From contig NZ_CP034835.1 in assembly GCF_004014715.1 (NCBI RefSeq), positions 3,224,001 to 3,288,000 on the forward strand: a stretch of DNA of 64,000 bases. Reading direction: 5' to 3'. The notes beneath the pieces are model-generated. The model saw only the letters and a program-made list of their open reading frames with translations, was not told the origin of the DNA and did not search any database. Both the position numbers and the translations under genes were made by a program. How positions within the stretch are numbered: position 1 is the stretch's first letter; every line of letters starts with the position of its first letter. This stretch comes from Pseudoalteromonas sp. R3. Its GTDB lineage: Bacteria; Pseudomonadota; Gammaproteobacteria; Enterobacterales; Alteromonadaceae. This document shows positions 1 to 49,792 of the stretch, in pieces.

Positions 1-561
1 CGACATACTTCTACCATTAATGCGCTGCATAAGGCTATGAAGCGATTGGGGATAACAGTAGAAAAAGTCTCTGGTCAGATTGCTACCCGAGGGCTTGAGA
101 TTGGTTCGTCTCCGCAGTCAGGCTATCGCCTGTTCAGCCCAGACAGTGAACTGGCGACTCTATGGCTGGCTTCCGATTTCAAGCAACACTATGCGGTTTC
201 TGAACAAGCGCTTCAGGAGCGCTTGCTTGCCGTCTCCGCACAACCCAACTTTATGCAGGTACGCCTTGCAGCAACAGGACCTGATGACTGGGTGAATTTA
301 TCGCAACAACAGAGACAAAGACTCGACACCACAATCAGCCGCTATGCACAAACCCAGCACCTGCCTTGGTTAAGTGCCTTATGCGACGGACTATCAGGCT
401 GCACCCTGCAAGCAATCAGACTTTCCGACAATGGGTTACTCGGACTGCAACTACAGTTGGCAGGCAAAACCGCAGCGGTTTACCTTGCTCAGCGCAACCG
501 GCTAATAACGCTTGAAGCACTCGAGCAAATGATGCAAGGAGGGCCAAATGTACTGGATTAA
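1..561 (+). CDS. unidentified protein of the PgsB-like operon, C-terminal part (5' end outside window)
   Basis: The reading frame is open from base 1, so this is the last 186 residues of a longer protein whose start lies left of the window. The visible part is soluble, rich in Gln and Leu, and has no membrane segment, signal or catalytic motif that I recognise. Its end overlaps the start of the next gene by 14 bases, so the two are very likely cotranslated. Position in a PgsB-like operon makes a role in polymer synthesis or export likely, but that is inference from context only. A PgsC- or PgsA-like gene might lie just upstream, outside view. Confidence 0.7.
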   Translation, partial: RHTSTINALHKAMKRLGITVEKVSGQIATRGLEIGSSPQSGYRLFSPDSELATLWLASDFKQHYAVSEQALQERLLAVSAQPNFMQVRLAATGPDDWVNLSQQQRQRLDTTISRYAQTQHLPWLSALCDGLSGCTLQAIRLSDNGLLGLQLQLAGKTAAVYLAQRNRLITLEALEQMMQGGPNVLD

Positions 562-2844
562 GCGAGTACTACAGGCGCTGCTGATAATCCTCGTGCTACT
601 GGCCGGATACCGTGTTGCACTGCATTTTTATGTCTGGCTGAACTCAGCTGAGCGTATTGCGGCGCGCAGTGAAGAAGAAACCCGCTCTGTGGTGCATTGG
701 CTAAGCCCGGATCGTCCGCTCATTTATACTTTTCCTACTTCACGGACCGTTGCTATTCGCGTGCTGTCAAACGCAATATTTGCCAGCCAAACCGTTTTCG
801 ATAAACCCATCAATTATGCAATCGAATACCGGCTGCTGGACAGTCAGGATAATGAACTGGAGAAACATGTTTATCATCATGCGTCAAAGCTTGCACTGGA
901 AGAAGGCCAGCAACAGGTTAAACAATTGATTGAGGACCGCCAGGCGCTGGCTGTCACATCTGGTCAGTCATTTTATGTTGACTGGCAACAACTGACTCGC
1001 GCCAGTAAAATTTCCTTACGGTTAATTCCGGAAGAGCCCAGTCTACGTGGCGTTGTGGTGCGTATCCATGGTAAGACCCCAACCAACGCGGATGATGTAA
1101 CCCGAACCTGGCTGAAGCTGCCCGAGCAATGGCGGGAGCGGATGACCAGTTATCACACATTGGGCAGTAGTGGTCTGCAGCCGTTGCAAATTACCAATGC
1201 GGTCTCTTACGACTGGCGAAAACTGGCACCACAAGGGATCCCAGGTATCGATTTTGACGCCGATATTCTCTATGAGTCTCTGCCCTATAATGTGATCACC
1301 TATGACTTTTCTGCCGAGCAGTTTGATTTGGATGGATATTACACCCGGCCTGGACTTGCCGCTTCTATACGCCTTACCAACACTGGGGATCTGAGCATAC
1401 AAACCCAAGGCGACACCAGAGATCTGCAACTGGTCTGGCACGACCTTACACAGCACCGGGCTCCAGTGACACTGAGCCTGATTGATACAGATGATCCGAC
1501 ACGATTCGAGCTACCGAACCTGGAACCTGGATTACTGGTGATCCGTTCTCGTTCTGAAATGATCACCACCTGGCGGGACGAATTGGACCAAGTCGTTGCT
1601 CCCCTTCACAGCTATTACTATCAGCTGGATGAGGCCAACCAGGCCGAGTTCACGGTCCAAGGCGGCAGCGATATCCAGCTCGATATGCGTGGCCCTGCTG
1701 GCAGCACAGTACAAGCAAAGGTGTATGACTCCCAACAGCGATTGCTGCGCTCTGAGGAACTCGTCCTGACGGGGGTGAGCAGTGGCTTTGACCGTTTAAT
1801 CACTCCGGAAACCCGACGAGAAGCCATTTCCGACAGCGAAAAAAGATTTCTGCGTCTGAGCCTTGAAGCATATAGAATCACGCTCAGCAGTACCGAACAA
1901 GTAGCTGTAAAATGCAGAGCCGTCATGGTGCAATGCATCATCAGAACTATGTCTGTGCCACGCTCTGTGACGCGCCACAAACCGGCTTCACTGAGGTCGG
2001 CGCCTGGTTTAGCCAAAGTGCCGATAACGAATTTGATTTTATTGAGCAGCAGAAGATCCTCAAAGTACGGCTATTCAGCGCACCACCCCCTTTAGAGGAA
2101 AAACAAACCGGCTATCTGTCTCAGGCCCTGTTTGTGCGCTTACCGGTATCAAATACTGCAATTGTCTACAGTCCGCCCAAATACTTTGCGCCACCGCAAC
2201 CAGCAGCCCCGTTTCAGTATGCGCCGTTAGAAAGTCTGGCGCAGCTGCAACGTGCTCAGCTCAGCCTACAACAAAGCGATCCCGCCTCTGCGCCGGTTCC
2301 CAGATTAATTACTCTCAGTGATAATGGGATCCGCTACACCGAACAGGACATCACGCAGCTGGGCAGCTTACCTGATTTATCAAATACGTCTTCGCAGTAT
2401 TTTATCAATCAGGGAACGCCTCGAGATTACTGGAAAGTACGTCTGTTCCAGCTACAACCCGGGCAGACCCTGATACAGGATTATCGTGCCAAAGACAAAC
2501 CGATGGCGATAGTCATAAAACCCTTTTTCAGGGGCAATCGTCCTGAGCATCCACTCGTGATGAGTACCCAACTGGATGGGCGTTTTAGTCGTGCCTTTAG
2601 CGATGAATACAGCATTTCGCGTAAGCGCTATGCTTTGGCTCCTGAGCAAGATTTACCCGCTTTTTTACTGCACCCGAAAAACCCGGAACTAACTGCATAC
2701 CCTTCAGTCACTCTGACTGTTGGCTCAGACATTGAACAGTTACATCAGTTAAGTCTGTCGGCGGAGCAAACCCTGTGGTTTGCTTTGCTGGAAGAATATG
2801 CGACACCTCCTCCTCAACCGCAATGGTGGCAACATGAATATTAA
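548..2844 (+). CDS. membrane-anchored periplasmic protein of the polymer operon (one-base frameshift)
   Basis: The start at 548 follows a strong GGAGG site. Residues about 5-27 form one hydrophobic helix after a short basic N-terminus, so the rest is probably periplasmic and anchored in the inner membrane. The body looks rich in beta strands, and I recognise no family. The reading frame breaks at the AAAA run at 1909-1912: frame 548-1911 continues sensibly only in the frame that opens at 1912. One more A would give a single protein of about 765 residues. The two pieces should be read as one gene, either mis-sequenced or recently damaged. The end overlaps the next gene by 11 bases. A role as inner-membrane or periplasmic partner of the synthase and the outer-membrane barrel is inferred from position. 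Confidence 0.65.
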
Positions 2845-3591
2845 AGCGCTTTTTTTCCTGTCATTACTGCTGCTAGCTGGTAAGGGGCACACCAATGAGG
2901 CACCCGAGCTGCAAAGCCCCAGCTGGCAAGTGCTGTACAATTGGTTTGCACAGCCGGTTGCCTTGCCCCCTGGCAATTGCGAAGTAGGCCTGGGCTGATA
3001 ACTTTGCATGCCAGCTCTAATCAGTTTGGTGGTGGAGATTTGTATTTCCACCCTAAGGGAAGCGCCTGTATGCTCTCTGTGCCTCATCAGTTTCATGATC
3101 AACTGACCGGCAAAATAGGCAAGGCCCTGTTCAATACTCGCTGCCAGGTCATGGTTATCAATACAGAGCACCGTAATGAGCCAAGTCCTGATCTGTACAG
3201 TATGGACTATTCACACCGTCCCAGTGGCTTGCATGCCGCCGCAGCGCAGGCTTTCGCTCGACGCTATCCTGCCAGTCATTTGTATCAAATACATGGCTTT
3301 AATCAGGACAAGCGCCGCACAGCACATGGCCGCCTGGCAGATTTCATTATTAGTCAGGGCAGACAAAATACCCCAGCTTTGGCACAATTAGGTCAATGTC
3401 TGTCAAAGGTAAGCGAGCATACCTATCAATATCCACATCAGGTATCTGAGCTGGGTGGTACACGCAATGTAATGCATCGCCTCGGCTTGCCTGCGGGGTT
3501 CTTTATTCATATTGAGATCAGTCGCCCAATGCGAGAGCGACTGGTATCAAACCCTCATACACTGGAACAGTTTGCTCTATGCCTTATTTGA
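2834..3591 (+). CDS. secreted hydrolase-like protein, possibly a polyglutamate hydrolase (frameshift)
   Basis: The start at 2834 (MNIKALFFLS) opens a clear signal peptide. The frame then shifts by one base somewhere between the CCCCC run at 2966-2970 and GGG at 2992-2994. Restoring one base gives about 252 residues. The body carries well-spaced conserved-looking motifs: VPHQFHD, NTEHRN, YQIHGF, ELGGTRN and HIEIS. Such His/Glu motifs suit a zinc-dependent amidohydrolase or carboxypeptidase-like fold. The order of an H-G-[FY] motif followed by a late E-I-S motif recalls phage poly-gamma-glutamate hydrolase (PghP), and the neighbouring PgsB-like gene makes that attractive. The likeness is from memory and weak, so the function is tentative. 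It overlaps both neighbours by about 11-13 bases. Confidence 0.55.
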
Positions 3592-6500
3592 TTGTTTTGC
3601 TTCTGACAAGCGTTCTGCTGCCTGCGCTGGCACAGCCCGCGGCACTGCATCGTGCTCCGGACTGGTTCGAGCCCGACACACTGCAGCTGCATCGTAATGC
3701 CGCAGACATCAACCTGGGTGCCAAACAATCCCGTTTTATCCTGCTTCCGGCTGGACGCTGGCTCAGCATGCAGAGCGAAACAGACGTCATTCAAATGTGG
3801 CAAGGACAATCTCCTCACGTCATGAAGCGCGTTACGCGGGCTGACCTCCACTGCGAACAAAAACAATGTCAGTTACCAGCCGCAGCTACTACGCGCCTGA
3901 TCCGCTTTTACAATCCAAATGAAAAGGTCCAGCAATTCTCAGCCTGGCAAGGGCTATTTCATCAACACCGGGATCCGTTTCGCATTCCTGTCAAGCTGGC
4001 GCTACCGGCAATGCAGCTCTATGAAGCGCAGACCCACACGACACATTACCGCTTAAACGACAGGCAGAGTATTCAATTGTTTTTTGCCGAGGCAACTAAG
4101 CTCAGATTAAACGCCCGGCGTATTCTGCCCGACCCGACTCAGCCAGGTATTGTCTCTGCCCGACTGAATGATGCTTTAATCAGTCAGATAGGCCTGAGCG
4201 ATACCCCCGCCGAGGAATTTACTCCTCAGTTGCGCAAATATCGTCTGGGCCATGACGTAAAACTCAATGATGACCAGGTTATCGGCCTGGCTAGTAGTGA
4301 CTACATCGCCGTGCCGGCTGGGGGTTATTTGCGGCTCGAGGCACAGGGCAATATCCTGCTAAACCTAGTGCGTATGGAGCGTGGTTTGTTTGATACCGAC
4401 GCCGCACAAACCTGGCCAGAAACCCTGTTTAACCCATACTGGACAGATAACTTGCAGTGGCACCTGGAGCAGCTCTACCAGCACCACACTATTTCGGCTT
4501 TACACTCGGCGGATCTGGCACGAAGCAGTGCACTAGGACGTCAGCGATTGTCTGAGTTACAAGATACGGTAGGCACAGTGCGTTTTTTGCAACCAAAACG
4601 CGCAGAACACCCATTTACCACTCACGTTAGCGAGCAAACGGTGACGCAGGCTTATCGCCTTGCAACCGACCGCCTTTATGCAACCCAGCAGCGTCAGTTA
4701 CTGCACTATCACGCCATCTCGGGTCCGGTCCAGTTTGAGCTGATTGATCAGCAACGCCTGTCCCCAACACTCAGGCTATATGCACGCACAACCAGCGCTA
4801 CCCAACTGATAGTGGAAATAGACAGTTATCGGCACACCATAGATCTCTTGCCATCTAAACATTTTGCAATGCTGGAGCTGCCTCTGCCACTGGACGCACA
4901 GCAACTCAGCGTCACTGTCAGCGATCCCATTAAAGTGGACCTGGCTTTACGTGTCAGAGAGTTACAATCTTTGCCAAACAATGCAGTGTTATATCAACGC
5001 CCGGGGCTGCTCAGAGATAAAAGCCCGGCAATTGCCTACCGCCTGGAGCAACAGTTACAAAGACTTGCCCATTCCTATCAGCAAGGTTTGTCTCGGTTTG
5101 AGCTGACTCAACCGCAACACGAGAGCACTAAAAACAGCCTCAGTACCAGCCATTGGCACTATCGCCTCGGCGAAGCAGAAATGATGGTAAAACAAGACCC
5201 TTTGCAGGCTTTACCTTTATTGAAGTCACTGATAGACAGCCCGCATCAGGAAGTCGTGATCAGAGCTTGGCAGCTGCGCCTTGCCGCTTTTTCTGAGCTG
5301 GAGAGCATAATACGGTTGAGCGTTACTTGGGCGCTCTGTTAAGCCACGCTTACCCTCAGTTACAACACTATGCTGCTCAGCAACTATTGGATCACTACCA
5401 GCGTACTCGCTCGATTCATAACATTCAGGGGTTGTGCAGTATGTGGCACACAAGGTTACCAGCCTGCGAAGAAGCACTGCGCACCAGTTTTGTCGAATTA
5501 CAACAAAACCTTTATGCTCTGTGGTTAGGCCATGACACGCGTAAAGACAATGATGCCTTGCGCCCTGTCCGTCAGCAACTTGGCTATACTGTGCCTGCCA
5601 GCCATCCACCAGCTGTTGACTATTCACTACATCATCATGGTGTCAGTACACTGCTCAGTGAAACAAGCAATACCTCGGCGTACCCAATCGTCAATCAAAG
5701 TATTACTGTCACCGCCCATCGCCCTATGCTGCTCAAAGTCAGTGCCAGGGCAAAGGCAGCAGAGACACAACAAGGTGAGATAGTCTGGCTGCGTGCACAT
5801 CGCTCTGCACAAAGTGACATTATGCCGATATTTAACGACGTGCCTGCGACCACCACGCTGCGTATTGACGAGCAAGATCAGCCACGCTTATCCATAGCCA
5901 GTACCGGCTATTTTTCGCTTCAACCAGCAGAGCAACTGACCTTTAGTAGCGACCAACTAATACTGCTACAGTTTGATGCTTTACCGCCTGCGCATGCTGT
6001 CACGTCAGGCCAGGATCTAAAGGGGACTTTATGGCAGGACGACTTTATGTCGCTGCTCTATCAAACACCGCTCGAAAGTGCACAGTCTGGTGCTTTGCAA
6101 CGCACCCTGTTACTCAATGCACTTTATCGTCTTGAGCAACACACTCTCAGTGAACATGAATATACCGCCCTGTCCGCAAGGCTGATGCAATCCCCGCCAA
6201 ACCCGGCTCTGGGCATTCTGTATAACCGTATCCAGAGCTTTGGTCACTGGCAAGCATTCGAAGCTTATCAAAACTATGCGGGTACCCAACTGGTCGATTT
6301 ATCTGCGCTGTCTACACGCAGTGTCGCAGAGCAGTTTAGCCGTCATACCAGTCGCGATGACGCGTTACCAGGACTGATCTTACGTCCTAACCATAGCCTT
6401 GCACTGGATCTGAGAGAATTACAGTCATTGCAAATCAGGCTGGTCTTACACTTCGCCAATGCGGAGTTATTGCAACAACATCAGCGACCGCAACTGAGTG

Positions 6501-7906
6501 TTGAGCGTGCCGATGGCAACGTGCACTGGCGTCTTGATAGCAACCGAAGTGAGCTCGGATTAACGCGTGCAGATTTAGCCAGCGGGAGACTGGTATTGCG
6601 TTGGCTCAACCCGTTTGCCGCACAGTTGCTGAGTGTTGAGGTAGAGGCCTATCAACAAGGCCGCTGGCAAACTATCGACTTGGGTGCTGAGCAACTCTTT
6701 TACTATGGCAATGAACGCAACCCGATCACCGCGAAACTGAGTAAAGACGCCATCCTGAAGCTGGAATATGTCGAGCAGGATACCCGTCGGGAGCAATCAG
6801 GCTTTTATCCAGCCGGACTACTGACCCTTGCACCGCAAACGTCGAGTCTGGCCAGACTCTACCGTTGGCAACTTGATCCCAATCGCCATAAACTGGCCGT
6901 AGCCCCGCCCGTACAACCACACAGAGTGCGCCAGCCCACACTGGTGTATACCCCAACAAAAACTCATTACCGTGAACCCATTATGCAGAGCGATGGCAAC
7001 CTCACCCATGTTGAAGGCGTCATGCAATACAATCGGGATGGCATCTATCAAAGTAGTGAGCCGTTGGGGTCTGAACACACGCTGGACCTGGGCATACGGT
7101 TGCGTAACCGACACAAGCAACACTGGTATCGGCTGGAGAGCTTCTTCCGCCTGAATAACACCAGTGAACCGTCATTCAGTATCAATGGCCAGTATGACTG
7201 GCTTGATGATGAAGATGACTGGTTCGCCAAAGCGTTGTGGAACAACCGCTGGCAAGAGTCGCCACAAAGCCGGGAAACACACCTGACCAGCCAGTGGGCC
7301 ATGACCATTGGAGAGATTTGGCGAGAGGATCAGCACTGGCGCCACCAATGGTGGTGGCAACCATTTTATTACTACACCAGTATTGAAAAAGACGAGTATC
7401 TGGCGGATGAAACCATTAGCAATGCCATGTTCAATTTTTACCGTCATAACCACAGCCATGGCTGGCGTGGCGGTTACCGTATCCGCCATCAGAGTCGCGT
7501 AGACAGTCAGCTCAGCGCCGAAATTACCACGACTTCCAATGAAGACTGGACCTCACTCGATGTAGCTTCACTAAGTGGTGTCTGGCAACAATATTATCGG
7601 GGTCATATTTTTTCTGTCGGCCTGAGCAGTGGCTATGTGTTTGCCGATGATCACCGCCCCAATGCGACCTGGCAGTATCTGACTACACTGGGCTGGCAAA
7701 CGCTGTTCGACTTTAGCGAAAACACTGGCGGCTGGATCAGTCTGAACTGGACACAGGATTGGTTCCGAAATAACCATAGCATTCGTTTTGAGGTCACACT
7801 GGGCAATTTGCAGCGCAGCGGCTTTGACCCGTTTGCGCATGATGAGATTATCTTTGAATCGCTGCAATTGACGCATTTTTTAGAGCAGGATTTGTATGGC
7901 AGATAA
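3579..7906 (+). CDS. giant outer-membrane beta-barrel protein, candidate polymer export channel (frameshift)
   Basis: The protein begins with a signal peptide (MPYLIVLLLTS, cleavage near ALA-Q). It has a long beta-rich N-terminal part, a helical-repeat stretch around residues 500-640, another beta-rich part, and from about residue 1160 an alternating aromatic/polar pattern typical of outer-membrane barrel strands, ending near Asp-Leu-Tyr-Gly-Arg. The frame breaks once near 5304-5308: one extra base gives Glu-Ser-His-Asn-Thr-Val in place of the early stop at 5342, and a protein of about 1442 residues. The layout (periplasmic helical repeats plus C-terminal barrel) resembles exopolysaccharide porins such as PgaA or AlgK/AlgE in design, not in recognisable sequence. 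An outer-membrane exit route for the operon's product is inferred. It overlaps both neighbours by about 11-13 bases. Confidence 0.6.
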
Positions 7907-10900
7907 CCAATTAAAAACCCAGCTTCAGGCAATCTTATTTGCCGATACAGAACAGTTCTGGTTGAATCTGCACCGTCATAAGTACCAGCAGCTGATTGAG
8001 GAGCTAGCCGGTTGGGAGCTATTACAAGATCAGCCAAAAGACGAGCAGCTAAACTATTGGCAGCTGCTGCAAAGCATTGCGTTTTTGCGCCATAAAATTG
8101 AGCGGCTTCATGAGCAGCTGGAAGGGCATGATGCAGATTATCAGTCGTTTGTAGAACGGCTCAGCAAAGCCGAGCTGGCTACCGAGAAACAGCTACATAT
8201 CCTCAAGTATGCAGAAACGTTGGGGGCTTCTGGCACCCAGCTGCAACAGGACAAGCAAGCGTTTACTCGCTGGTTTGATGAAGGTGCGGTCATTGGCCGC
8301 TATCAAACACTGGTTGCCGATCTGGAGCAAGATCTGCGCTTTTTTATTGCCAAACTCGGTGCCCTAACCAACCGCTATCTGCGTATGTCAGATAATGAGC
8401 TGGAACAGGCCTGGAAAAAGTTGGATTTACAGCCTTTTTTCCTGCGCTTAATGGCCACCAGTAACAACGCCCACGTCCGTCATGGCATGATCCGCGCTCT
8501 GGTCAATCAGGTTTCCGTGATCAATGAATTTAAAGCCGATCCGGACTTAGACAGCGAACTGGTTGCCGAACTCATAGAGCTACTGGATGCAGAAAATACC
8601 CCTTATCAGGCCATTATCGATATTCTTGAAATTCTGATCCACCAGCGCCCGACCTTTGTACGCAGTTATATGTGGGCCTATGTAGAGACAACGCTTGGTG
8701 ATAATACCTCTTTGCATAAGCATAATGATCAGCTGTTCATTGTGGCTGCAATGCCTCGAATTCTGGCCAATAAGTATCCACTGGCAGAACGGGATATTCC
8801 ACTACTGCGTGAACTGACACAACACCCGTTTGCGCGTGTACGCCAGGTGTGTATTGAGCAATTGCGCAACCTGCCTGACAAGTTGGCTAGAGAATTACTG
8901 GAACAACGCTTCGAAAAGGAAGTAGTCGACTCCGTACGTTTCACCCTGGTTAAGCAGCTTACCGCTGCTCGTTTTGCTGCTGACGGGTATGCGTTTGAAT
9001 TATGGCGCTCCCATCTTCTTGGCGAAGAATGTCTGGAAGTTAAGCGTATGTTGTTGGAGCAAAGCCCCAGACTCATGCTAAATGAGGCCGTTGAAGTAAC
9101 ACTGGACGATACCTCAAGCAATCAAGACACAGTTTTAATGCAACGTTATCTGGGTGTATTAAATCAGGCGCTGGAGCGTGACCCCAACCTGGCAGTCAGA
9201 CGCTATATTGCACGTACCAGGGAGCAGCTAATCAGCTTCACGCATCAAAGTCTGCACGCACAACTTGCCCAGGCACTGGCTGAGCAAGAAACTGTATACC
9301 TGCCCGGCGATATCGATCAGGATACACTGGGACGAGCGCTCAGCATGCTGGCTCAGCACGAGCAAAGCTTTAACGCCTATCGTGAAAAGCAAGGCTGGCG
9401 GATCCAGATAGATTACAAACGCCGCCGGCGCTTCTGGCGAGTCTGGCATGAGTTTTTTACACCCAGTACAGATAAACGTCAGAGCTTTAGCCATACCCGG
9501 GCCAAAATCCCCTCTGCACAACTTCATGTGCCCAGTTGTACCACAGCAGAGATCAGTGCCACAAATGTCCCGGGTGAAGCGCTTTACCACCTCAAAGAAG
9601 CCAGCGCACGGCCACATTTACCCCTGCCTGACTATTTATTGTCGGTACTCAGTCAGGATCAACTCAAGACCAGTGGTAAAAACTACACTCCCGATGGTAT
9701 TTTGGTGGTGACACCGCCAAAGCGCCTGTGGCAGCGGGTTCGGGCTTACTGGCACTTGTCAGTCAACTACGCTGAAATCGATGGCCTGCGCAAGGGCAAT
9801 GCGCTGGAGCAGCAAAATTATATTGCACAACTGCGCAAACTGGGCTTTGGTCTGGAGTTTAAACCTTATGGCAGCGAACTTGGCTGCACCTTTTCGGTTG
9901 AGCCGGGTATTGCAAAATTGTTTGCTCGGGCAGGCGTACCTGGGGTACTGGTTAATCTGGGCTACAGTTTTAAAGAATACCTGTATTCAATTTATCAAAA
10001 CAGCATAGGTCAGCTGGTATTTTTTGTGTCGACCTTTATCGCTTATTTCTGGTTGCGTCATATTCGGCTAAATCGCAAAATTCGCAGCAACCGAGCCAAG
10101 ATCCCCGTCACAATTGGGGCTGGGGCACTCGAGGAAAGTCGGGTACCGAGCGACTCAAAGCGGCATTGTTCAGTAGCCTGGCACTGCGCGTGGTCACTAA
10201 AACAACCGGGTGTGAGGCCATGATGATTTTCGCTCGCAGCTCAGGGGAGCAGTATGAATTGCCGCTGTTCAGACCCTTCGATAAAGCCAGTATCTGGGAG
10301 CAAAGTGATGTACTGGATTTTGCCCGCTCGGTGCGCGCAGATGTCTTTTTATGGGAATGCATGGGCCTGACACCCAGATATGTGCGGATCCTGCGTCGCT
10401 GGATGCGCGATAACTTCACCACCATCACCAACACTTACCCGGATCATGAGGATATCCTTGGCCCGAGCGGTGTTGATGTTGCACGGGAAATGGCCGCCTT
10501 TATTGGAAGCAACACCCAGATTTTTACCGCCGAACAAACCATGGCCCCGATTCTGAATCGGGCAGCGGACCACAAGCAATCCACCCTGATCCAATTGCAC
10601 TGGGGTGATGGCTTTCAAATCACGCCCGACATCCGTGCCCTGTACCCATATGAAGAGCACCCGGACAACATTGCTTTGGTATGTAAAATGGCCCAGTACA
10701 TCGGCATTGACAAAGATTACGTTTATAAAGAGACCGCCGAGCGTATTGTACCGGATGTTGGCGTATTACAGCATTTTACCGCTGCACCGGTCGATCACCT
10801 GACTCAATCTTTCGTCAATAGTATGTCAGCCAATGAGCGTCTGGCAACTCTGGAGAACTGGCGCCGTCTTGGCTTATTTGATCTGAACGACAAGCCTGAG

Positions 10901-12004
10901 ACACAAACCATTGCGCTGCTGAACAACCGTAATGACCGGGTTGCACGGTCAAAAGTATTTGCACAGATCCTGGTGGAGGACCTCAGTTTCGACCATATTG
11001 TGGTGATCGGGAGTAATGTCGATGGCTTCGAGGCATATCTGGATCAGGCACTGGATACCCGGGTAAATCGACTGATTGACAATAATGACAAGCAAGATCT
11101 GGTACGCCTGCTGGCACAATGGAAATGTGGAGAAAGCCCGGAGCACTTTATTCAACAGTTAAACAGCCTGTTTGAAACTCCCATACTGGATACTGCTCAC
11201 TTGTTTGATGACAACCTGCTGGCGACGGCACTCACTGAACATATTGATGATAAAGCCCAGCAAGGCATTGTCCGGCTGCGGGTTCAGAATTGGCAATTGG
11301 CACACTCCCTCAGAACATTGGAAGACCTGGCAGCAAACCGCAAGCAACTGAACCGAGTTCTGAGTAGTATCTTGCACAGCAAATTACTCTTACTAGACAA
11401 TCCGCATATTACCGCGGATGAGCTCACCAATCGGATCGCTCGTCTGGGGCTGGCCGGACAACATCAGTTAATTGTGGGCATGCAAAACATCAAGGGGCCG
11501 GGATTAAACTATGTTTATGCCTGGCAGCACTGGCATGCTTTGCATGCCAGCTGTGAGCGCCTACTGGAACCACAGATCAGTCATGCTCAGTTTCGTCGTG
11601 ACCTTAATAAGTTAACACAACTTGATAAGGTCAATCGTATCGAGCGCGACTATTTTTCGCAGATGCTACAAACCTTCAGCAAACTCCCTCAAGCACAAAG
11701 CGAATTTGCCCAGGCCGAACTCAGCCATCTGGCAGAGCGACTTACCCAACAAAGCGCCAGTGATGGACAAGCTGCCGGACCTGAGAGCCTCTCAGGTGTT
11801 ACACGCTTTGTGCTGCAAGTGGTTGAGTCGTTTCTCGACGCCGGCGCTGCGGTCAAAAGAAAGAAAACCGCTCAACAGGTTTATCAGGATATTGCCACAC
11901 AACGGATCACGCCGGAGCGCGCCATCACGGTTCTGGCAGCACTAAACCGGGGCCAAAAACCGGGCTGGCTAACGGAGCGCTGGCTTAATCGCGGCAAGGA
12001 TTAA
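7896..12004 (+). CDS. PgsB/CapB-like poly-gamma-glutamate synthase with a very long N-terminal extension (frameshift)
   Basis: The C-terminal half matches the PgsB/CapB family (Mur-ligase-like ATP-dependent amide ligases) motif by motif: a GTRGKSG P-loop near residue 745, VVTKTTG, ECMGLTP near 820, NTYPDHEDILGP, HPDNIAL, FVNSMSANE and NNRNDRVARS. Bacillus PgsB has equivalents of each in the same order. Residues about 700-722 form a membrane helix just before the P-loop, as in PgsB. Unusually, about 700 helical residues precede this helix, whereas ordinary PgsB is about 390 residues long. A further helical tail of about 300 residues follows the ligase core. The frame breaks at GGGG, 10116-10119; one more G gives Ile-Gly-Gly-Trp-Gly-Thr-Arg-Gly-Lys, restoring the P-loop and 1369 residues. 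The likely activity is polymerising glutamate or another amino acid at the inner membrane. Confidence 0.75.
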
Positions 12005-12396
12005 CAGCGCTCATGCATCTGTTTAGCAGCACCAGGCCTGTGTAGGCATGCTCCTTGCTCTGATCATCTGTGAATGACTTAAAAACGGTGTCATTTCGCA
12101 GTGTTCAATTTTATTAAGCGAAATGGCCGGGACAGGCGTCGCAAAATGCAAAACAGTGCAAAATGCGAACTGTGACTGTCCAGATGACATGTAAAAGTAT
12201 TAGGTACAGAGGCAATGATAGTTAATCCTTTGGTACCAATTTTATATTGTAATACTGAGGCATAAATCGGAACTAACAGTCATTTTTTGATTTCTAATTG
12301 ACCAAACCGCACAAAAGTAAGAAAATGGGATTAGTTAAAATTGATTAGGGATAACATTTTATTTACACAAATAGAATTTAGCCCTGGAGTATGTCT
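12005..12396. other. intergenic region after the polymer operon
   Basis: About 390 bases without a credible gene. I see no clear hairpin terminator for the upstream operon. There is a short near-repeat (AAAATGCAAAACAGTGCAAAATGCG around 12143, abbreviated here to its AAAATGC units). The AT-rich last 120 bases probably hold the promoter of the next gene. Confidence 0.4.
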
Positions 12397-13605
12397 ATGA
12401 AATTATCAGTTCTTGCGCTTGGCCTGAGTGCCGCCCTAATCAGCAGCTTTGCTGCAAACGCCAGTGAAAACCTGATCACTAATGGCTCTTTTGAACAGTC
12501 TGATGCTGTTAATGGCTCCTGGAGTCTGTTCAGAACTTTGCCCGGCTGGAGCCGCAGCTCCGCTAAGTTTGAAATTCAGACTAACCGCCTTGGCCTTATC
12601 CAGGCACAAGATGGTGAGCAATATCTTGAACTGGATTCTACCCGTAACTACAGCGCATACCAAAGTATCGCTACGGAAGCTGGCAAACAGTATGTCGTGA
12701 GCTTTTACTATTCACCACGTGTTAATAACAACAGCACCACCAACAAAGCAACCGTATATTGGGACGACCAGGTCATCGCTGAACTAAATGGTACGCAACG
12801 AGGCTGGCAACACTACACCATCACAGTAACGGCAAATAGCGACGCAAGTACTTTGAAATTCGTTGGTGCTGGTAACTCAGACTCATACGGTGCGCTACTG
12901 GACAACGTCTCGGTAACAGCTGATTGCATCACAGGCTTATTTGGCATAAATAACTATGGCTCCGCGCAAAGTGGTTACGTGTATCACTTTAATGTTGACG
13001 CTGGTCAGTACAGCACAGTATCTGGTGTAACACACACCGCATCTAACATCGCAAGCAAAGACGGTGTGCTTTATTTCATGGAGCAGACTGACAGCAAATC
13101 TAAAGCTTCGACCTTGTGGGCGCTGGATCTCAATGGCAACCAGCAATATAGCGTGGCGAATGCAACTTCATGGCCTTTGTATCGCTCAGCTGTTACACCA
13201 GATGGCGTGTCTTTACGCAGCACCAGTAAAACCTACATGTACGACTTTGACATGAACAGTGGTGAAAAAACCGTACTGGGTAAATTGTCGTACCCGGGCG
13301 ATGATTTCAGTCATGGTGACATTGCGTACTCAGCAGATGGCAACATCCTTTACGTGTTGACAGGTAAGGCACTGTATACGCTGGATGAAGGTAATATGGA
13401 ACTGACTAAAATTGGTGAGCACGGTGTTAACTGGGCTTCCGGTCTGGCCATTACTGCTGACGGCAAACTGTATGTCTCTGGTCGCGAAGCAGGCAGCAAC
13501 GCGCAAATCTGGCAAATGAACCCAAACACAGCCGTTGCAACTTTAGTGATGGAAGGTCCTGAGCATATTAACGACCTGACCTTTGTCGACAATTTCTGTC
13601 GATAA
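12397..13605 (+). CDS. secreted DUF642-like protein with C-terminal beta-propeller-like repeats
   Basis: The start at 12397 is preferred over the ATG at 12391 because GGAG at 12386-12389 is 7 bases from it. The 402-residue product has a signal peptide ending near Ala-Asn-Ala-Ser. It then has a jelly-roll-like segment starting NLITNGSFE and closing with LLDNVSV, the hallmark of DUF642/PEP-CTERM-type carbohydrate-binding modules. The second half (from about residue 185) contains repeated strands such as YAVTPDG/YSADGN/ITADGK, suggesting a small beta-propeller. No sorting signal is visible at the C-terminus (Asp-Asn-Phe-Cys-Arg). An extracellular binding protein is likely, with its ligand unknown. 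It stands alone between an upstream gap and its own terminator. Confidence 0.7.
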   Translation: MKLSVLALGLSAALISSFAANASENLITNGSFEQSDAVNGSWSLFRTLPGWSRSSAKFEIQTNRLGLIQAQDGEQYLELDSTRNYSAYQSIATEAGKQYVVSFYYSPRVNNNSTTNKATVYWDDQVIAELNGTQRGWQHYTITVTANSDASTLKFVGAGNSDSYGALLDNVSVTADCITGLFGINNYGSAQSGYVYHFNVDAGQYSTVSGVTHTASNIASKDGVLYFMEQTDSKSKASTLWALDLNGNQQYSVANATSWPLYRSAVTPDGVSLRSTSKTYMYDFDMNSGEKTVLGKLSYPGDDFSHGDIAYSADGNILYVLTGKALYTLDEGNMELTKIGEHGVNWASGLAITADGKLYVSGREAGSNAQIWQMNPNTAVATLVMEGPEHINDLTFVDNFCR

Positions 13606-21125: not shown

Positions 21126-21767
21126 AACGCTTAACCTGTTGGATTTGAATAACACCTCACACTAACACATCTGACCAGTTAGTTCAGCCCTGTTTGTTGG
21201 TTTATTTACTCACCTTTTACAATGAATATCATTGTATTAGGTCAGATATCAGAAGGTTACAAACTTATAATTGCCTTTTTCACAACAATATAAATACCAG
21301 GCAGGCTCACCCTGACAGCATCCTTGTATTTATATCATACCCAAAAAAATCGCCTGCCAAGTTTGCACAGCAAAGATATAAAATATTTCATAGCATGGCA
21401 GCCAGGTACAATTGTTTTTCCTCTAATTGACTGCAAACTTCACTTCACACCTTCGTGATCCACCCGACATATTTTATAATAAACAAAGGCATAGGATGGA
21501 TTTTACATTATTCAGAACCGTTCTAATAAAAAGCACTTTATCCCTATTTTTTAAGTAAACCTGGAGCTTTCTTTCATAAAAACAAAATTGGAACGATTCA
21601 AGAACAAAGATTTAAAACAATCAACAAAAAACAACAAGTCTGTATGTCTCTAATACTTTGACTAAAGATAAAACTTGTCATTTTTTGCAATTAACGACTT
21701 TAATTATGGACGACAATATAATGAAAAGTACGCCACGGATGACGCCTCTTTCGAACTTGGTGATTCT
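21126..21767. other. long intergenic region between the DUF4442 and chemoreceptor genes
   Basis: About 640 AT-rich bases. Short open frames here (for example 21194-21430) lack ribosome sites and look random. The only clear element is the Fur-like palindrome at 21218-21236. Promoters for both divergent genes should lie here. Confidence 0.5.
21218..21236. promoter_or_regulatory. Fur-box-like palindrome
   Basis: TACAATGA-ATA-TCATTGTA is a perfect 8-3-8 palindrome. It matches the 19-base Fur consensus at about 13 positions, including the AATGA/TCATT core. It lies 93 bases upstream of the DUF4442 start and 532 bases upstream of the chemoreceptor. No iron gene is adjacent, so the assignment is uncertain. 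Confidence 0.4.
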
Positions 21768-23779
21768 ATGAAACTCAGTAACAAACTCTACTCAGCCTTT
21801 GGTGTTCTTATTGTGCTGATGGTGATGTCCAGTACACTCGTCTGGTTTAAAGTCGCCACCGAAACGGCCCGGGCTCAGGAAGTCACAGGCGATGATCTTC
21901 CAGGCATGATCCTCTATAGCCGTTTACTCGACACTGAACACCAGCTTAAAAGTGCAGCGCTCGAATATATGAACGGGGATACCAGTAAAAAATCCACGTT
22001 TAACGAGGTATTTCGAAAGTTCAAAGAAGTACACACGGAGTTATACCGCTATGAATCCGCCAAGCAGGCTGACCGGGAAAAAATGGCCCATATTCTCAAA
22101 AGCATTACCACGTATCATCAGCGCGTCAATCAGGATGTTTTTGGTCGCTATGACCCCGATGCCTACCAGCGTATCAAAACCCGGGTGGACCGTCTTGAGT
22201 CGACCACAGGAGAGCAGCTAGAAGCTCTGCTGGATAAGCTTAAAGAGCAGGAGTTTAGCGATGCCATGCAATCAACCGATTTGCAGGAGTCACTTAACGA
22301 TGACTTGCCAGGTGTCCGTTACTATTTAGAGCTTGTCGATGAAGCCGGCGATATGATAGCCGCGATTATTTCACATACAACGGGTAATACGAATGCAGAA
22401 GCTGACTTTAATGACGACGCTGCCAGCTTTGAAGAATACCTGAATTTATTGATACCGCTTGAGCAAAAGCCAAATGAGCTGCAAGATATCGCGACCATCA
22501 AACGCTTATACAAAACGATACGTGACGAGGCGACTGTCGTGTTTAGTAGCTATGACCCGACGGCCTTTAAACAAGCCACTGCAATGCTCAGCGAACTGGA
22601 CAGAAAGTATATTCAGGACATAGCAAAAATCCTCGACGTATCTGCGAAAGAAGAAATCGATGATGCAACAGGCGCACTGGAACTGTTGGTTGAGGGACTC
22701 AATTCGACGTCTATCGTGATTATTGTGATCACACTGATCGCTGCGATTCTCGGTATCGCCATTGCTTATATCATTAGCCACTCAATCGTATCCAGACTCA
22801 ATCAAGTACTCGGCGTGGCTGAGCGGATCAGTGCCGGTGATATCTCTGACAGAGATATTATGCACAAAGGCCAGGACGAAATTGACGGTCTGGCGGAAGC
22901 CACCAACAAAATGGCTCGCTCTTTAAACGAATTATTGCACTCTATTGCTCAGGTGGTAGATGATGTACGCACCTCTAGCCATGATATTGCCGAAGCCAAC
23001 GACCAAATCGCCTCGCGCAGCCGCTCATCTGCCGATCAATCAACTCAGGTTGCTACGGCCATTGAAGAAATGAGCGCCACAGTCTCAGAGGTTGCATCAC
23101 AAAGCCAGGTAGCAGCCAGCCACGCCGATCAGGCGCGTACACTGGCCTCAGGAGGCGGAGATACCGTCGGACAAACCGTCAGTAAGATTAAAACGGCCTC
23201 ACAAAACGTGCAGAAAACCGCTGAAAACGTGACCCACCTGGGCGAACTAAGTAGCCAAATAGGAAACGTGATTGGCGTGATTGGCAGTATTGCCGAGCAG
23301 ACCAACCTGCTCGCCTTAAACGCGGCAATTGAGGCTGCGCGAGCCGGCGAACAAGGCCGTGGTTTTGCGGTGGTTGCCGATGAAGTCAGAACGCTTGCTG
23401 AGCGCACCTCAAAAGCGACAGAGGAAGTGGTTTCAACAGTTCAGTCAATTCAGTCGCAGACCGAACATGCCGTCAACTCAATGCAAAACAGCGTGTCTCA
23501 GGTTGATCAAAGTGTGTCTATGGCGGAAGCTGCGGGGCTCAGCTGGATGATATCGTTCGCGGTGCGTCTGAGATTGCCGCCATGATCCAGTCGATAGCGA
23601 CAGCAACAGAGGAACAATCAGTCGTTGCTGGAGAAATGGCTCAGGATATCTCGAAGATAGAGCAATCAAGCCAAAGCTCACTACAGGATACTCAGGTTGC
23701 GGCTTTGTCTGCACAGCAGCTCAATAAACAAGCCGAGCAACTGGCTCAGTTAGTGCGTAAGTTCAGACTCAGAACTTAA
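21768..23779 (+). CDS. methyl-accepting chemotaxis protein with HBM sensor domain (one-base frameshift)
   Basis: The start at 21768 ([11 protein letters not shown]) leads directly into the first membrane helix; a second helix lies near residue 310. The periplasmic part holds two helical modules, each opening with Asp-Asp-Leu-Pro-Gly, as in helical bimodular (HBM) sensors like McpS of Pseudomonas putida. HAMP follows, then a signalling domain with the conserved tip [20 protein letters not shown]. The frame breaks at GGGG 23534-23537: one more G joins the tail from 23582 in frame and gives about 670 residues. No CheR-binding pentapeptide is seen at the C-terminus. The ligand cannot be read from sequence; known HBM receptors bind organic acids. 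Confidence 0.85.
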
Positions 23780-45986: not shown

Positions 45987-48900
45987 TTAGTTTTCATTGC
46001 TTTGTTTTGACGCTGGCGACACATTAAAGACGCCTTCTTGCAGCACCTGTTCGAGTACCAGATACTGAGCTTCAATACTGTCGACCAGGGCTTGGTAATC
46101 GGCCCCATTTTCATGCCTGGCGCCTTCTTCCAGCTTGGCCAGTAACTGAGTCAGCCGCTGCGCCCCTATGTCGGCACTTTGTCCGCGCAAAGCATGGCTG
46201 ATCTGCTTAACCTGACCATGATCTTGTTTTTTACAGTGTTCCTTCAGAGATAACAGTTTCTGGGGCGCTTTATTATAAAACAGCATACAAATTTGCAGAT
46301 ACAGCTCAGAGTCACCTTGCAAACGTGCAATGGTCCCCTCTACATCAAGCACTTCGCCCGACAACTCAGGCGTCTGCTCTTCCTTCACAACGGACACACT
46401 CTGCTCTGAAGGTGCTGTTGAAGAAGTACCTTCTAACTGATGTGAAGAATACTGTCTTTGTGGTTGTTGGTATGACTTAAACTTAGACAATACATCAAAC
46501 AACAACTTAGGCTGTATAGGCTTAGTCACGTAGTCATCCATGCCAGCAGCCAGGCACCGTTCTCGCTCGCCTGACATCGCATTCGCCGTCATCGCAATAA
46601 CCGGGATATGACGGAAAGACTCGCCCCCTTTTCCTTCACGGATTAAGCGCGTTGCCTGATAGCCATCCATGGTTGGCATATTGCAGTCCATTAAAACAGC
46701 AAACACAGGCTGGTTATTTTTTTCAGCGTTTAATAGTCCGCTCAACGCCTCGTGGCCCGATTGGCAAGTGACAACATGAGCATGGATCCCCTGCAGGATC
46801 CCTCGGGCTACTTCCCGATTGATCTGATTATCATCTACAATCATCACCGTAGCACCGCCCAGGTCGTTCTGCTCCGTACATTGTATACTGGGCACCATGA
46901 CCTGATGCTGATTTTTTAGCATCTTAGCAATTGCATCCTGGTCAAAGACCGACAGGAACGCCCCCAAACGAATAGGTTTCACCAACTTAGCTAGATATCC
47001 CTGGGCGACATTCTGATGAGTAAATTCACTATAAAGCACTATGGCTCGCTTATACACAGGGGTATCGAGCAAATTCTGCATATGGGGATGGTCGTGGTCA
47101 AGCACCACAAATTCACCATCATGCTCCACCAAAATACCACCATATTTATCTATCACATGTGAAAGATAGCTGTGCTCGCGAGCATCTTCGACATGAAGCT
47201 CGAAGCGCCGGCCATCCAGGGTATTTTCATGAGGCTTGGGCTTGGCCGTATCCAGTGCAAACGGCAAAGTAAAATAAAACTTGCTGCCGACGTTTTTCTG
47301 CGATTCAAAGCCGATTTCTCCGCCCATTAATTCACAGAGATTTTTGCAAATCGACAAACCCAGCCCGGTGCCACCAAACTCTGCACTGACACCACTGTCT
47401 TCCTGAGTAAAGGCAGAGAAAATTTTATGATGATTATGTTTATCTATCCCAACTCCTGTGTCTTCCACGGTCACAGTGAGATACACTTTGCCCTCCTCCT
47501 TAGTCGTCAGAGCACGTACGCAAACACATCCCTTACTGGTAAATTTAATGGCATTGCTCACCAGGTTGAAGACCACCTGCTTAATGCGCCCGGCATCTCC
47601 CGCCAGCTCAACAAAATCAATGTCTGTTACATCTACCACAAGGGTCAGCTGTTTTTCATACGCTTTTAGTGAAATGGAGGTGACAACATGCTCGACCACG
47701 GAAATAGGATTGAGTGGCTCCTGTTCCAGCTCCAATTTACCAGCCTCAATTTTAGACAAATCGAGAATATCGTTGATCAAAGAGGCCAGTGTCGATGAGC
47801 TGGTTTCGGTCATTTCCAGATAAGACAACTGCTTTTTAGTGAGAGGTTCGCGGCGAATGAGGTTCAGCGTGCCCAAAATACCATTCAGTGGGGTGCGCAT
47901 TTCATGGCTGATGGTAGAGATAAAGGCACTCTTAACCGCCGACGCTTTCACTGCCTTGGCTTTTTCTGCTTCCAGCTCTGCCGTGCGCGCTTGTACCAAA
48001 CGCTCCAAACTTTCGTTGGCACTTTTAACTTGCTGCTCGCTAATCTTTTCTTTGGTTGTGTCGCGACCAAACAAGGTGATCCCAACCAGCTGATTATCGG
48101 GACCTCGCACAGGGGAGACGGTAAAGTTTACATGCCGGGTCTGGTCTTGTAGCGTGTAGCTTTCATACCAATCGGTATCTTTTGATTTTGAGCCGTCTTC
48201 ATTTTTGAAATAAGACATAGCATCCTGCAAACGATCCATGGGTAACTCAATCAGATCGGTAATTTTGTGCTGTCGCTCACTGGCCGCCAGACTGGGGAAA
48301 ATCAGTAAAGACGCACTGTTGTACGTCTGAACATTCAACTGCATATCAAAGCTGATGATTGGCTCATCAGCCCCGTCAATAATAGACTCATAGACAGCCT
48401 TGTCTTCCTGATACTGCTCACGACTACGATAGAAAAGTACAATGCCCCCATAAACAACAGCAGCACTAAGGTTACGACTGTCAGAAGCATATAACTTGAC
48501 AAGCGCCGCTCATTTAATAGTGCGCCAGCCTGCTGCGGCAAGGCAATAGCGGTAATAAACATTTCGTGCCCAGGCCCCTGATAACCGCTGTTTAACTCTC
48601 TCTGTATGGCGACCTGCATTGCCGAAGAGCCATGCTTTGCAGCACCGTCAACCCGCCCTTTTGCCGTGCTGTGTAACCTAAAATCATCATCAAACAAACG
48701 TGGCCGGGCCAAGTCCCGGGTGTAATGAAACACCGGCTCAGGGCCATAAATATAGTGCCCCTGGTGATCGGTCAGATAATACTCTCCGGTGTCATCATTG
48801 AGTAATTCAATCAGCTGCCAAGCGCTGGAATTAAGTACCAGTAAGCCAAACAGATCGTTGTCTGCATCAAACAAAGGCATGGCGATACGCAGCACAGGAT

Positions 48901-49477
48901 TGAACGGACGCTGCACTTTGTTATTCTCAAAATTCAGGGAAATACGCGATGCAAAGTGCATTTCTTCGGACAAGTTCAGAGTTTCCTGAACATAATCTTT
49001 ATGCGATTTATCCTGCAGTTTGGCTTCGGGGATCCGCTCTACCTTGCCACGCCGCCGGTCAACCCGAACAAACTCTCGTCCATCCGGCATGATTATCCGC
49101 AGCTGCAATAACTCCGAGTTATTATGGATAAGGGATTTAAAAATGGTGGCAATGCGCGTTTTCCACAGTTCAATGGGCTGATTGTCCTTTGGGTCAACGC
49201 CATTGTTTTTCAGTGCACGAGCAATGCCCGGAAAAGGCGGGGTATCTTTTAAAAAGTGTAGGTAGCTTAAATCAGCCCGATAGCGCCGCTCAAATTGCTG
49301 CGCAATATGCGCGGTATTTTGTCTGAGCTGATTTTCTACTTCAAACTGTACTTCACGTTGCAGCTTACGTTCAAAGAAAAACACAGCCAGTACAATCAGC
49401 AATAGTAAGAATACGCTGAACACGCTCGCGAACCAAGGTGTTTGCTTACCTAGCTTTGCCGACAGGATCCTTATCAT
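45987..49477 (-). CDS. hybrid histidine kinase with Cache sensor, receiver and HPt (one-base frameshift)
   Basis: The frame from 49477 holds a membrane anchor, a double-Cache-like sensor and the second membrane helix. The frame from 48344 holds PAS, HisKA (TISHEMRTPLNG), ATPase (DTGVGI, GGTGLGLS), a degenerate receiver, a full receiver (VLMDCNMPTMDG) and an HPt domain (SHALRGQSADIG). Between them one G is missing in the run that reads CCCCC on the plus strand at 48445-48449. With it, helix LLLFMGGIVLFYRS continues into the PAS in frame, giving about 1163 residues. It is therefore one gene. It lies 86 bases upstream of the CHASE kinase and could pass phosphate through its HPt. Confidence 0.88.
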
Positions 49478-49792
49478 AGTATGACCTTTCCCCTGTATAC
49501 AGGGTGTATTCTAACGGTTTTTTACTGATATCAGCTTGGTCATAAGCCTGCACAGAAAGGGGGCTTTAGACCGAAAAATAACTTTGAAAACAGCTGTTAC
49601 ACACAAACTATAGTCCATGACGCGTACTTTACATGGCTCCTGTAAAGACTTTTCACTTTTAGCTGAATTCTCACGAGCAAGTTATTTATATTTCCCTTAT
49701 CTACAGAGCATAGGCCAAACTCATCAGTTTAACACCCCGCCCTTCAACAATCGTAATGTTTTATTCTTTACTCCCTTTTTGATTAAAAAGAC
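49478..49792. other. intergenic region between the TPR-GGDEF and kinase genes
   Basis: About 310 AT-rich bases; it should hold the promoter of the Cache kinase. No gene, clear terminator or known operator is seen. Confidence 0.4.

Follow-up and report, generated by a model that had tools for sequence, protein, structure and literature searches.

A candidate operon for synthesis and secretion of a gamma-glutamate polymer across both membranes of Pseudoalteromonas and other Gram-negative bacteria

Introduction

How might a chain of gamma-polyglutamate (PGA) leave a cell that is bounded by two membranes? The question is raised by a stretch of 64,000 nucleotides from Pseudoalteromonas sp. R3 (contig NZ_CP034835.1, positions 3,224,001 to 3,288,000; the whole stretch is called the window here), which begins within an operon of seven overlapping genes in the order A-B-C-D-E-F-G. 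The genome of the strain comprises 5.8 Mb in 2 contigs. The literature passages available to us hold no explanation of how PGA crosses the outer membrane, and the operon offers a complete candidate machine. With a probability of roughly three in four, we think that it encodes a Gram-negative synthase-dependent system that makes and secretes gamma-PGA or a closely similar polymer of gamma-linked glutamate.

Excerpts of published work give the background. PGA systems, defined by CapB together with CapC, are reported in most phyla (PMC5542703); the pair PgsB and PgsC is present in 250 species of bacteria spread over 58 genera (PMC4497714). Polyglutamate production by a Gram-negative bacterium is said to have been demonstrated first in Fusobacterium nucleatum (PMC3815933). 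In a Cloacimonadota species three genes are arranged as in Gram-positive bacteria (PMC13082233), and a mutator study of P. lipolytica includes a CapB mutation among many (PMC10634453). Among the matches listed in PubMed Central, which omits most subscription papers, no title or abstract describes a PGA system with an outer-membrane part; within these partial sources we found no earlier description of a dedicated outer-membrane export route for polyglutamate.

The operon and its probable synthase

Five overlapping plus-strand genes, C to G, occupy positions 1-12004 of the window, each sharing 11-14 bases with the next. A sequence-only reading of the window had placed here an amide ligase, an anchored periplasmic protein, a hydrolase-like protein and a giant barrel. 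These positions are confirmed, with one correction: D, E, F and G each span two frames in this strain, as does B to the left, so that the open frames are pieces of genes. Gene content, gene order, family matches, predicted folds and invariant residues were all computed.

The last gene, G (7896..12004), encodes a PgsB/CapB amide ligase with a 700-amino-acid (aa) N-terminal extension. In the window piece the ligase half matches TIGR04012 (PgsB) with 185.8 bits (1e-54) and FolC with 17.9 bits (0.0016). The intact G of locus L033 scores 218.1 bits (1.6e-64), a little short of the 222.7 bits set as equivalog cut-off, against 20.0 bits (3.7e-4) for FolC. No Mur ligase model was listed for G in the NCBIfam or Pfam searches. 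A folate or Mur ligase identity, which the sequence-only reading had named as a result that would refute it, is rejected by the scores, PgsB being ahead of FolC by about 170-200 bits. The extension carries HEAT-type repeats, HEAT_2 being barely at the Pfam cut-off in the window piece and under it in L033. A Kyte-Doolittle scan with a threshold of 1.6, used for the membrane helices of C, D, E, F and G, found none in G.

The suspicion that partner genes lie to the left of the window, and that PgsC-like and PgsA-like genes should be sought there, proved well founded: a PgsC-type protein, a sensor-like protein and a PGA_cap lipoprotein are all present. Gene C (L002:13448-16561, 1037 aa, plus strand, intact) has its start some 2,550 bases outside the left edge of the window and ends within it, at 1..561. 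Its orthologue at L033 matches PF14102 (Caps_synth_CapC; cut-off 27) with 95.4 bits (4.1e-27) in two stretches, and that at L034 with 123.4 bits. The 11 overlapping hydrophobic stretches of C all lie within residues 13-366, and the protein has a large soluble domain that holds two degenerate domains resembling E.

Gene A (L002:9240-11453, 737 aa, intact) encodes a lipoprotein of the PGA_cap (PgsA/CapA) type. The A of the window genome, on which the match within the operon depends, scores 167.8 bits with PF09587 (PGA_cap; cut-off 27). Of 12 fetched Pseudoalteromonas loci, 10 have an A-like frame 5' of B that begins like a lipoprotein, a count that comes from a script searching for the motif GGD; for 8 of the 10, a lipobox was identified by eye. 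Ser or Lys after the lipobox Cys would suit the outer membrane. Outside the genus, 12 of 20 genomes have no PGA_cap match, some of them being incomplete bins, and the remaining 8 have it outside the operon: in 7 it is on a different contig, and in 1 it lies about 18 kb away from C. PgsA is thus an operon member in Pseudoalteromonas only, among the loci examined. A core lacking PgsA should be workable because pgsBC of B. subtilis alone yields PGA: according to an excerpt, the product is L-rich, with a D/L ratio of 5/95, against 75/25 with pgsBCA (PMC6029982). We predict an L-rich product for the PgsA-less core.

Between A and C lies B (L002:11479-13448), a membrane protein of uncertain family in which all matches are below the cut-offs. 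One orthologue gives CHASE2 at 0.0085, yet the unrelated QWRF at 0.0022; another gives merely GAF_3 (0.088) and AnfG_VnfG (0.089). The Pseudoalteromonas B is shorter than that of other genera, where a homologue of 679-975 aa stands directly 5' of C in all 12 loci for which the left flank was fetched. In 5 of those 12 a frame of 120-134 aa, receiver-like by eye, lies between B and C. At L039, from another family of the same order, B has a histidine-kinase ATPase match (0.00027, under the cut-off) and is followed by a receiver protein, and a receiver protein is present at L034 too.

The predicted periplasmic and outer-membrane proteins

Gene D (548..2844) encodes a protein with one N-terminal hydrophobic stretch, taken as a membrane anchor, and a large periplasmic part. 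It has no Pfam or NCBIfam family, and comparison with C showed no relation. A comparison with F gives shared beta domains at 78.7% only, which we keep as a hint.

Gene F (3579..7906) encodes the outer-membrane barrel protein, with a signal peptide and one hydrophobic stretch. The F of L033 has no match in Pfam or NCBIfam, known exporter families included. The model of one orthologue (L049:7420-10008) predicts helices and beta-sandwiches followed by a C-terminal barrel of 14 strands. Helical repeats joined to a barrel are the build of BcsC and PelB; the modelled F appears to have this build, that of exporters of the BcsC/PelB/PgaA type. Among the matches listed, the barrel is closest to CymA and OmpG and less so to BcsC (14.9) and PelB (14.7). 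In methanotrophs F is split into two genes, a periplasmic half and a barrel half (L098:4563-9899, L103:4445-9948, L108:4205-9765), and at L098 and L103 the barrel half starts with a lipobox-like sequence.

Gene E (2834..3591) encodes a putative secreted enzyme, with a signal peptide read by eye and no membrane helix in the hydrophobicity scan. It has no Pfam family, and a search of PDB sequences with E profiles gave 0 matches at E-values up to 10. The evidence comes instead from a confident model. In the VIA alignment the best matches, among those listed, are N-formylglutamate amidohydrolase and three poly-gamma-glutamate hydrolases, which stand above the carboxypeptidases; a further match, 2odf, has no named activity. 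The residues of E that correspond to the zinc and catalytic positions of gamma-PGA hydrolases are invariant, and the pattern of PghL is retained. Judged from the model, E would share both the fold and these residues with the gamma-PGA hydrolases of PF05908. Free-standing E-like proteins also occur in genomes without a PgsB match, at L134:904-2226 (which begins with a lipobox-like sequence and has a PKD domain) and L135:823-2199, and are possible secreted PGA-degrading enzymes.

Conservation and co-occurrence

A strong PgsB was found in 18 of 35 genomes of the same genus and in two genomes from other families of the order. The 20 fetched loci show ordered single frames, with B before C and lengths of 1,019-1,073 aa for C, 754-839 for D, 247-312 for E, 1,407-1,733 for F and 1,355-1,396 for G. 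The exceptions are L044, with C in two pieces; L034, where C starts in a masked stretch; and B at L034 and at L048, truncated where the fetched sequence ends.

A genome-wide search that used the PgsB alignment turned up 305 relatives, and 78 named loci were kept, 48 of them from Pseudoalteromonas. Eight have less than 4.1 kb upstream and show F-G or G only, leaving 70 for the count of gene order. C-D-E-F-G is complete, ordered and on one strand in 68 of the 70: 63 directly, 2 with F as two genes and 3 after a six-frame look (2 of these also with F in two pieces). The survey of gene order in relatives, on which the sequence-only reading had staked its proposal, thus came out in its favor. One of the two exceptions, L110, has a partial gene set. 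The generic caller of open reading frames (ORFs) hid E (L103, L112, L122) and G (L112) behind antisense frames, and six-frame profiles recovered them. Other hosts are Marinobacter, Halomonas/Vreelandella, Pseudidiomarina, Marinobacterium, Crenothrix and other methanotrophs, Thiodiazotropha and a Nitrosomonas bin; single bins labelled Nitrospirae and Deltaproteobacteria also carry the operon, and bins can be mis-sorted.

In a phylum sample of 398 genomes (the window's own included), the E profile is strong (E-value below 1e-50) in 7 genomes and weak in 2 others. TIGR04012 is strong (>180 bits) in 7 as well, the other 36 matching genomes having at most 26.3 bits. Strong E and strong PgsB occur together in 6 of the 398; the hypergeometric P of about 9e-12 overstates the link, since a single family (f55) accounts for 5 of the 6 and the sixth is the window's own genome. 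In genome G240 PgsB is present and E is not, but the contig breaks off inside F. Among the 8 genomes picked by E, F is present in 5, the same 5 that have PgsB. The PgsB frames of the six strong non-window genomes are 1,109-1,431 aa long; the short Bacillus-type PgsB was therefore not found in this sample.

The copy in strain R3

The copy that led us to the system is not in good order. Five of the seven genes, B, D, E, F and G, are frameshifted, each lying in two frames, and are intact in relatives. The break in D is near 1910-1920, that in F near 5300 and that in G near 10118; each of these genes, like E, has one. In E it falls in the N-terminal part, so that start and core are in different frames, the catalytic core sitting in a single frame. 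Compared with the intact proteins of a relative (G033), B, D, F and G match in two frames, and A and C are whole. Since five of seven genes are frameshifted, the system is probably inactive or decayed in this strain.

The breaks could instead be sequencing errors in a working operon. We consider this somewhat less likely than not. A and C are intact, most neighbors are whole, and two other stretches within the 80 kb are also in pieces relative to the relative's proteins, as sequencing errors would have it. The breaks are concentrated in the operon, however: of the operon genes tested, 4 of 6 are in two pieces, and the rest of the 80 kb has 2 broken genes among 31 with a clear match (Fisher P about 0.003; with E added as broken, 0.0008), a contrast to be read with the caveat that the operon genes are long and thus likelier to break. 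Moreover, none of the breaks in B, D, F and G coincides with a run of more than 5 bases. The broken side of this count has 8 proteins: 4 from the operon, 2 that fall on one stretch and count once, 1 from a separate gene and 1 omitted (197 aa, 47% identity, partial). The whole side starts from the 32 proteins of the relative that match the region in one piece (68-99.6% identity) and comes to 29 once A and C, which belong to the operon, and one neighbor listed twice are taken off; E is outside the tested set.

Both broken stretches outside the operon lie in the window. At 45990-49495 a gene of 1,168 aa in the relative is in two frames here. At 21738-23776 two adjacent proteins of the relative (681 and 581 aa) match the same stretch in two frames, possibly a duplicated pair that was reduced or recombined.

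A proposed route for the polymer

The proposal of an envelope-spanning operon for the synthesis and export of an amino-acid polymer is supported by the matches to PgsB, PgsC and PgsA, the gene order, the barrel model and the hydrolase fold; the chemistry of the polymer, and with it the substrate, the direction of transport and the role of each periplasmic part, we infer. Working with C on the cytoplasmic side of the inner membrane, G (PgsB) would activate glutamate with ATP and lengthen the chain, the membrane helices of C providing the exit path. The chain would then pass into the periplasm along the two degenerate, probably non-catalytic hydrolase-like domains of C and the inner-membrane-anchored D. 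F, with its periplasmic part of helical repeats and beta-sandwiches and its 14-strand barrel, would carry it over the outer membrane. E, as a periplasmic zinc enzyme resembling gamma-PGA hydrolases, may trim or clear chains; BcsZ acts likewise on cellulose. B, a membrane sensor that is longer and kinase-like elsewhere, with a receiver adjoining in several loci, may switch production, and PgsA would be an add-on in Pseudoalteromonas.

To a wider picture we would give even chances. In it, a widespread two-membrane machine for secreting amino-acid polymers arose by joining a PgsB/PgsC synthase to a Bcs-like route with its own hydrolase and sensor kinase; PgsC acquired copies of the hydrolase fold as a periplasmic guide for the chain; the core lacks PgsA and makes an L-rich polymer; and Pseudoalteromonas added PgsA as a lipoprotein of the outer-membrane type.

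Several results weigh against a PGA secretion system. The cut-off of TIGR04012 is exceeded in 3 of 60 genomes (own included) and in 0 of 398 in the phylum sample. C scores 39.7 and 56.2 bits with TIGR04011, below the equivalog cut-off of 96.45, and is therefore called a PgsC-type fusion protein, not PgsC proper. For E, Pfam searches gave no sequence match to PF05908, and hhalign against 8 PF05908 proteins gave 1.7%, with global mode empty; sequence kinship was rejected on this ground and fold kinship retained. Among the matches listed, the top two for E in VIA are not PGA hydrolases, and in Foldseek alone carboxypeptidases come first, with PghP in fifth place. The second metal position is D89 in E (H+4) and E46 in PghL (H+5). 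General porins match the F barrel better than polymer exporters do. At one locus (L124) the genes D and E are divergent and F was not detected, and one genome (G133, L179) has E without PgsB, an E seen by profile search and absent from the ORF-caller output. The 78 loci were chosen by PgsB and are silent on the role of F elsewhere. Finally, the window's own copy is doubtful owing to its frameshifts.

Some of these points would suit the same machine and the same export with another cargo, an amide polymer of a different amino acid or a mixed peptide. PgsB and C are under the equivalog cut-offs in most genomes, and E is merely a fold relative of PGA hydrolases, with a fold that serves N-formylglutamate amidohydrolase and carboxypeptidases too. 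We nevertheless consider another cargo unlikely: the named enzymes above the carboxypeptidases in VIA all act on glutamate compounds, and E keeps the PghL residues. That no free polymer is exported, the product being a glutamate coat bound to the surface or linked to the envelope, or that F serves PGA uptake with E as a digestive enzyme, would fit the CymA- and OmpG-like barrel and the free-standing E-like proteins, but is very improbable given that F adjoins a PgsB/PgsC-type synthase in the loci seen (which were PgsB-selected), keeps company with PgsB among the E-picked genomes, is very large on its periplasmic side and joins helical repeats to a barrel as BcsC and PelB do, and that an uptake system needs no synthase.

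Relation to known systems

With the PgsBCA/CapBCA systems of Bacillus the proposed PGA secretion system shares a PgsB-type ligase, a PgsC-type protein of PF14102, in Pseudoalteromonas a PGA_cap protein, and a single operon. It differs in the 700-aa N-terminal extension of PgsB, in the large soluble domain of C with its two hydrolase-like folds, in the extra genes B, D, E and F, and, for the other genera examined, in an operon without PgsA. The overall build is like that of Bcs cellulose secretion (BcsA-BcsB-BcsZ-BcsC), to which Pel and Pga are related in design. Unlike Bcs, an amide ligase replaces the glycosyltransferase, Pfam searches found no sequence relation, and the F model has 14 strands. 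Unlike PghP and YndL (PghL) of PF05908, E has no sequence match to that family, is secreted and is encoded within a biosynthesis operon. The excerpt describing CapsuleFinder gives CapB and CapC as components of PGA capsule systems and CapA and CapE as accessory, and names no outer-membrane part and no D, E or F (PMC5542703).

D, E and F are thus three protein families without a Pfam match, and the hypothesis is directly testable in lab-grown marine bacteria. If it is true, the logic of synthase-dependent export extends from sugars to amino-acid polymers. Gram-negative bacteria could then also serve as a source of an industrial polymer and of its hydrolase, and capsule-finding tools would have an outer-membrane part to screen for.

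Neighboring and related loci

A secreted protein of 404 aa is encoded at 12391-13605 of the window, about 390 bases 3' of PgsB. It has the same place in several Pseudoalteromonas, not in all, and is left out of the operon here. The Nitrospirae bin has a second locus (L173), in which a PgsA-like protein of 769 aa (6139-8448) is encoded on the strand opposite to a 516-aa protein with an E-like domain (9476-11026).

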